Assembly (NCBI GenBank): GCA_021325515.1
Contig: JAJPHC010000037.1
Coordinates: 248,001 to 312,000, forward strand
DNA length: 64,000 bases
Direction of reading: 5' to 3'
Source of the DNA: Acidobacteriota bacterium
GTDB taxonomy: Bacteria; Acidobacteriota; Thermoanaerobaculia; Gp7-AA8
Shown: positions 42,194 to 43,280 of the stretch, in pieces
How the letters are laid out: every line of letters begins with the position of its first letter
How positions within the stretch are numbered: the first letter of the stretch is position 1
The notes under the pieces: model-generated
Told to the model about the DNA's origin: nothing
What the model saw: the letters and a program-made list of their open reading frames with translations, nothing else
The model's database searches: none
Made by a program: the position numbers and the translations under genes

Positions 42194-42199
42194 TACCAT
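42194..42199 (+). promoter_or_regulatory. selD: TANNNT box (TACCAT), 7 bases before the selD GTG
   Basis: TACCAT-CCCTTCC-GTG matches the arrangement seen at several other starts in the window and supports the GTG at 42207. A GCGGAC-GTCTC-GTCCGC hairpin (42163-42180) lies just upstream and could end the preceding transcript. Confidence 0.45.
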
Positions 42200-42206
42200 C
42201 CCTTCC

Positions 42207-43280
42207 GTGCGGCACAAGCTGCGTAGTTCCTATCCGGCGTTGTCATCCTTCGCGACCACAGGCGGTTGAGCCTGCAAGCTGGGTCAGGATGACCTGCGTT
42301 CCGTGCTTTCCAAAGTGCCCGCACCTGACGGGATCGGGGATCTTCTCGTCGGTCACTCGACGAACGACGATGCGGCCGTGCTCCGCATCAGCGGCGATCA
42401 GGCGATCGTGCAGACCGTCGATTTCTTCACTCCGATCGTGGACGATCCGTACCTTTTCGGCGCGATCGCTGCGGCGAATTCGATCTCCGATGTTTACGCG
42501 ATGGGCGCCTCACCGATTCTCGGACTTGCGATCGCCGCGTTTCCCACCGGCGAGCTTCCGCTGGAAGTGCTGCAGGAGATTCTCCGCGGCGGCGCGGAGA
42601 AGGCAGCCGAGGCCGGATTTCCGGTTGCGGGAGGACACACGATCATCGATGAAGTTCCGAAGTACGGACTCGCGGTGACCGGCGTGGTCAGCATCGACAA
42701 GCTCGTGCGCAACTCGACGGCGAAAGCCGGCGACTCGCTCTACCTGACGAAGCCCATCGGCAACGGCATCCTGATCAGCGCGCATCGGGCGTTGAGCGGA
42801 CGTAAGTTGTGGAGACGCGCGGAGCCGCCGTCACTCGAGGAGGCGACGCGCTGGATGACGATGCTCAATCGCGATGCGGCGCAGGCGATGGTCGCGGCCG
42901 GCGTGAATGCCGCGACTGATGTGACCGGCTACGGTCTCATCGGCCATCTGCTCGAGATGTGTGCAGGCTCGGGAGTCGGTGCCGAGATTCGCGCGAGCGC
43001 GGTGCCGGTGCTCACAGGTGCCCGGGAGTATCTCGAGAAAGGATTCCGTCCGGCGGGCAGCGTGCGGAACGCGGAGACGTTCCGGCGGCGCGTCGAGTCT
43101 TCGGTGAGCGAGACCGAATTCATGTTGATGTGCGATGCTCAAACGAGCGGCGGCCTGTTGATCGCCGTGTCCCCGGCCAACGAACAGGCGCTCGAGGAGC
43201 GGTTCCGCGAAGGCGGCCTGTTCTATGCAAAGATCGGAAGGGTAACGGACCGGAACGCGGTCGTCACTCTAGCCGGCTGA
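42207..43280 (+). CDS. selD: Selenophosphate synthetase SelD, itself a selenoprotein (in-frame UGA)
   Basis: 357 residues with Sec at position 21 if TGA at 42267-42269 is read through; a conventional caller would start at the GTG 42303 and lose the active site. The read-through N-terminus is ATTGG-Sec-ACKLGQDDL, matching the SelD catalytic loop AGCGCK/AGUGCK with the essential Lys three residues later. After it come GHSTNDDAAV, TVDFFTPIVDDPYLFG, NSISDVYAMG, GGHTI and YGLAVTG, as in full-length SelD. The enzyme makes selenophosphate from selenide and ATP for Sec-tRNA synthesis. A hairpin GGTCA-GGA-TGACC follows the UGA with its loop at +18 to +20. The start codon (GTG 42207, or TTG 42240) is the uncertain part. 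Confidence 0.92.

Follow-up and report, generated by a model that had tools for sequence, protein, structure and literature searches.

Selenophosphate synthetases (SelD) that themselves contain selenocysteine (Sec) have long been known and are common, for example in Pasteurellales and Methanococcales (PMC4561486, PMC1794560). These proteins have UGA-encoded Sec at the position of E. coli Cys17, the Lys of the active site, a nearby 3′ SECIS element and the full SelA/SelB/SelC machinery. E. coli SelD (PDB 3u0o) belongs to the same family and has the same active-site residues, including Lys20, but carries Cys17 instead of Sec and has no SECIS. A different line of work has shown that TA-like signals (TANNNT) located ∼12–13 bp before the start codon mark leaderless genes in bacteria, which average 13.3% of genes in Acidobacteria (3 genomes; PMC3160421). 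The selD gene described here shares the features listed above with the Sec-containing enzymes, and its box position and lack of a Shine-Dalgarno sequence with the TA-led genes. It differs from the former in its lineage (Acidobacteriota; Thermoanaerobaculia), in being very probably leaderless and in coming from a genome in which no selenouridine synthase was found, and from the latter in encoding a selenoprotein with UGA at codon 21 and in using GTG rather than ATG as the start in most family members. Sec-containing SelD and acidobacterial leaderless genes are each known already; a partial literature search, covering mainly titles and abstracts, found no published leaderless bacterial selenoprotein gene that would represent the combination.

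In the window (the whole 64,000-nucleotide stretch of DNA that was analysed), selD occupies positions 42207..43280 of the forward (+) strand, on which all window features described here lie. Its reading frame extends from GTG 42207–42209 to TGA 43278–43280, is interrupted solely by an in-frame TGA at 42267–42269, and would specify a 357-aa protein with Sec at codon 21. When this TGA was treated as a residue, the product matched the SelD model TIGR00476 at 382 bits (cut-off 125) over model positions 2–309 of 311, and its function, as predicted from this family match, is the formation of selenophosphate from selenide and ATP. The genome contains a single SelD, three further matches scoring under the TIGR00476 cut-off. 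ORF calling with TGA as a stop returns a 325-aa ORF that begins 96 bases late, at GTG 42303..42305, and aligns to TIGR00476 from model position 37 with a score of 353 bits. Comparative sequence evidence makes us highly confident that 42207..43280 encodes a Sec-containing SelD, translated from a leaderless mRNA with the UGA read as Sec under the guidance of a SECIS element.

Read through the UGA, the catalytic loop is TTGG-U-ACK, with the residues that precede Sec21 given as SSYPALSSFATTGG (SSYPALSSFATTGG-Sec-ACK). An earlier note on this DNA had claimed a SelD with UGA at its catalytic position and a GG-U-ACK loop that includes the essential Lys, and the family match and alignment to E. coli/Aquifex SelD (E. 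coli, PDB 3u0o) bear it out. The two outcomes named there as refuting it, a genome devoid of Sec machinery and relatives with a Cys codon in a different frame, did not occur. U21, C23 and K24 are in register with E. coli Cys17, Cys19 and Lys20, and the respective codons lie at 42267..42269, 42273–42275 and 42276–42278.

Orthologues were compared in a family/order set of 19 (17 family relatives, 1 order relative and the window genome). The window protein is 60–79% identical to the others over its whole length, the first 32 codons included, and the Sec codon column holds TGA in 18 of the 19 and TGC in the remaining one (L035), at the same codon and in the same frame. Closest named records are from Acidobacteriota, several of them labelled Thermoanaerobaculia or Gp7; beyond the family, TGA and TGC forms of SelD coexist within the class, in which SelB is nearly universal (92 of 101 genomes). 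Conservation of the UGA column together with that of the 32 N-terminal residues places the observation far beyond chance. The TGC of a nearby orthologue such as L035 would fit a sequencing error or a recent nonsense mutation of a Cys-SelD, which would make the window gene a pseudogene, yet 18 genomes, each assembled separately, share the TGA, as do many other phyla, along with Sec machinery and conserved SECIS codons, and the chance of such an accident is vanishingly small. Highly improbable, too, is the possibility that the 325-aa ORF is the real product, made without a catalytic loop, and that TGA 42267 acts as a normal stop codon or belongs to a non-coding leader. ORF finders that stop at TGA do return this frame, and its score to TIGR00476 is substantial, but the 32 residues ahead of GTG 42303 are conserved as protein throughout the family, one codon upstream of them being UGA in most members and TGC in another; 42303 has no start signal ahead of it; and a 325-aa protein would be without the essential Lys and the Sec/Cys residue. 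GTG 42303 was rejected as the real start. Reading selD as a Sec-containing protein from GTG 42207 corrects an annotation that would drop the SelD catalytic loop, and documents probable use of Sec by a little-studied class of Acidobacteriota, in which synthesis of the Sec precursor would itself be carried out by a Sec-dependent enzyme.

The earlier note had also placed the true start ∼100 bases upstream of the apparent one and had pointed to a TACCAT box 7 bases before GTG 42207. Both proposals hold, and the coordinates it gave for the GTG, the TGA and the box are exact: GTG 42207 precedes 42303 by 96 bases, the first 32 residues are conserved, and the box, a -10-type (TANNNT) sequence predicted to be the leaderless selD promoter, lies at 42194..42199, 7 nt ahead of the GTG. 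In 19/19 family/order orthologues a TANNNT sequence ends 6–8 nt ahead of an in-frame ATG or GTG, which itself sits 17–20 codons 5′ of the Sec codon, as compared with the 2.8% expected from Markov-resampled upstream sequence. TANNNT is present at this spacing from the start codon in 42 of 54 Acidobacteriota SelD genes, and a Shine-Dalgarno-like motif is found in 1 of the 19 family/order orthologues versus 13 of 27 in other phyla. No TANNNT box precedes GTG 42303 or TTG 42240, and no Shine-Dalgarno sequence precedes GTG 42303. A -35 box was not recognisable ahead of selD, and a sigma-70 two-box scan consequently gave no promoter, as expected.

A genuine read-through could in principle be combined with a start at TTG 42240 or another codon, on an mRNA that has a leader. 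TTG 42240 shares the frame, lying 11 codons past GTG 42207 and 9 before Sec, and the leaderless start has no recognisable -35 box; against this, TTG occupies that Leu codon in only 3 of 18 Sec orthologues, while the spacing of the start codon to Sec and that of the box to the start codon hold in all 19 and a Shine-Dalgarno motif is missing in 18. We give this alternative a slim chance. The box in 19/19 orthologues and the missing Shine-Dalgarno motif in 18/19 argue that the selD mRNA is very probably leaderless, with a start, predicted from these patterns, at about 42207. The leaderless mRNA implied by the box and an identifiable SECIS element both go beyond the earlier note.

The published bacterial SECIS model specifies a loop of 3–9 nt, a stem of 4–16 bp, a spacing of 16–37 nt and an energy of ≤ -7.5 kcal/mol, with the first two loop positions occupied by G, often in the pattern N1-GG/U-N-N2 in which N1 pairs with N2 (PMC13188914). 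A stem-loop at 42281..42295, the predicted SECIS element of selD, agrees with this model in every respect. Its core, GGUCA-GGA-UGACC (42282–42294), has its loop 16–17 nt past the UGA and one G-U pair (42281/42295) beneath it; the loop is 3 nt long (5 nt without the top pair), with A-GG-A-U matching the N1-GG-N-N2 pattern of bSECISearch (PMC13188914, Fig. 2), and the segment 42267–42300 folds at -8.6 kcal/mol. The folds of two orthologues are slightly above the -7.5 kcal/mol limit. The short GGUC(A/C)/(U/G)GACC core is common to SelD genes, and is unlike the E. coli fdhF-type stem with its bulged U. Since the single-sequence fold of this region is no better than that of shuffled sequence (z about 0), the case for a SECIS rests on comparative data, namely synonymous-codon and pairing statistics. 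An Rfam scan of the window gave no match.

The 18 Sec orthologues share 128 invariant degenerate columns, of which 10 are restricted to one codon; 5 of these 10 fall at codons +2 to +8 past the UGA (TGC, GGT, CAG, GAT and GAC). GGT is used in 18/18, although it accounts for 19% of the Gly codons in these genes, and two adjacent Asp codons are always GAT followed by GAC (18/18), as pairing in the stem requires. Scanned in nine-codon windows, synonymous conservation along selD peaks at and directly past the UGA. The Cys orthologue L035, in contrast, has GGG, GAC and GAT at the SECIS codons, which breaks the stem, and the Cys homologue L042 differs from its Sec neighbours L041 and L170 in having GGA rather than GGT; counting against this pattern, the Cys homologue L172 partly retains a SECIS-like GGUC/GACC pairing. 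In a phylum set of 52 Sec-SelD genes, the four lower core pairs are held in 45–50; at the top, 25 genes pair A-U and 17 pair C-G. This exchange partly tracks GQ versus GP in the protein and is not purely RNA-driven, as the GQ..D and GP..D sets differ in protein as well. A larger hairpin that encloses the UGA in one fold (GTCATCC 42242–42248 with GGATGAC 42287–42293) was set aside, as the codons of its 5′ arm vary freely in orthologues.

The window genome (5.4 Mb, 99.8% complete) contains SelA (474 bits), SelB (374 bits) and a tRNA-Sec with anticodon UCA (69.8 bits), all encoded on other contigs than selD. Family searches for other selenium genes identified a second gene with a Sec-UGA, fdhA, encoding the alpha subunit of formate dehydrogenase (L140:1150-4188, on contig C44 of the same genome; 916 bits to TIGR01553), whose in-frame TGA (L140:1693-1695) falls in the motif NQARI-U-HSSTVPGL. 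A SECIS-like hairpin with the loop GGUCU follows and is strong (-14.8 kcal/mol over 40 nt); the SECIS loop of E. coli fdhF has this sequence. The start codon, GTG 1150, has TACACT 7 nt ahead, and by this measure fdhA also looks leaderless. Because the machinery and a Sec-UGA fdhA are present, the Sec trait is, on gene content, live in this genome, and the idea of SelD as its sole selenoprotein was rejected. The selenouridine synthase MnmH/YbbB (TIGR03167) had no match in the window genome and none above the cut-off in 18 relatives. A role of SelD in supplying selenouridine was rejected on these grounds, and selenophosphate appears to be used for Sec only.

A scheme that joins these directly visible features (homology, the conserved UGA, SECIS conservation, complete machinery and the conserved start box) would run as follows, with the transcription start, Sec insertion and enzymatic activity as its predicted parts. 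RNA polymerase would initiate at, or 1–2 bases from, GTG 42207 off the TACCAT box, and ribosomes would load onto the leaderless selD mRNA. SelB and Sec-tRNA-Sec would decode the codon-21 UGA (42267–42269) as Sec, guided by the SECIS hairpin loop 16–17 nt on. Sec21 and Lys24, in a flexible N-terminal loop, would act with ATP and selenide to yield selenophosphate, which would pass to SelA for the Sec of both SelD itself and formate dehydrogenase. That SelD depends on its own product is already known, and inherited SelD is a plausible answer to the problem of starting from zero.

L035 and L042 are acidobacterial SelD genes in which TGC replaces the Sec codon and the SECIS codons are unlike those of their Sec neighbours; as judged from sequence, they are natural Sec/Cys exchanges in lineages that retain SelB. 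L035 comes from the same genome as L058, and SelB is still encoded there; a Cys orthologue with altered SECIS codons constitutes a clean natural control. In other members of the class (L043, L046, L047 and L050), Cys-SelD follows another domain as part of a fusion, with open frames of ∼750–800 aa, and some genomes (e.g., G027, G036 and G060) carry both a fused Cys-SelD and a stand-alone Sec-SelD.

It is likely that selD and fdhA of Thermoanaerobaculia are both expressed from leaderless mRNAs, with UGA recoding taking place on transcripts that begin at the initiation codon (∼20 codons before Sec in selD), and that this arrangement, kept across much of the class, is maybe selected. If so, selection could act, for example, by sustaining SelD synthesis under conditions that limit conventional initiation. 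The conserved leaderless start would also offer a simple system for the study of SelB-dependent recoding soon after leaderless initiation. In Sec-SelD genes of Marinimicrobia/Neomarinimicrobiota (L066, L067, L069, L071, L095 and L103), a TAAATT box is located 6–9 nt ahead of the ATG, which suggests leaderless selD genes in another phylum.
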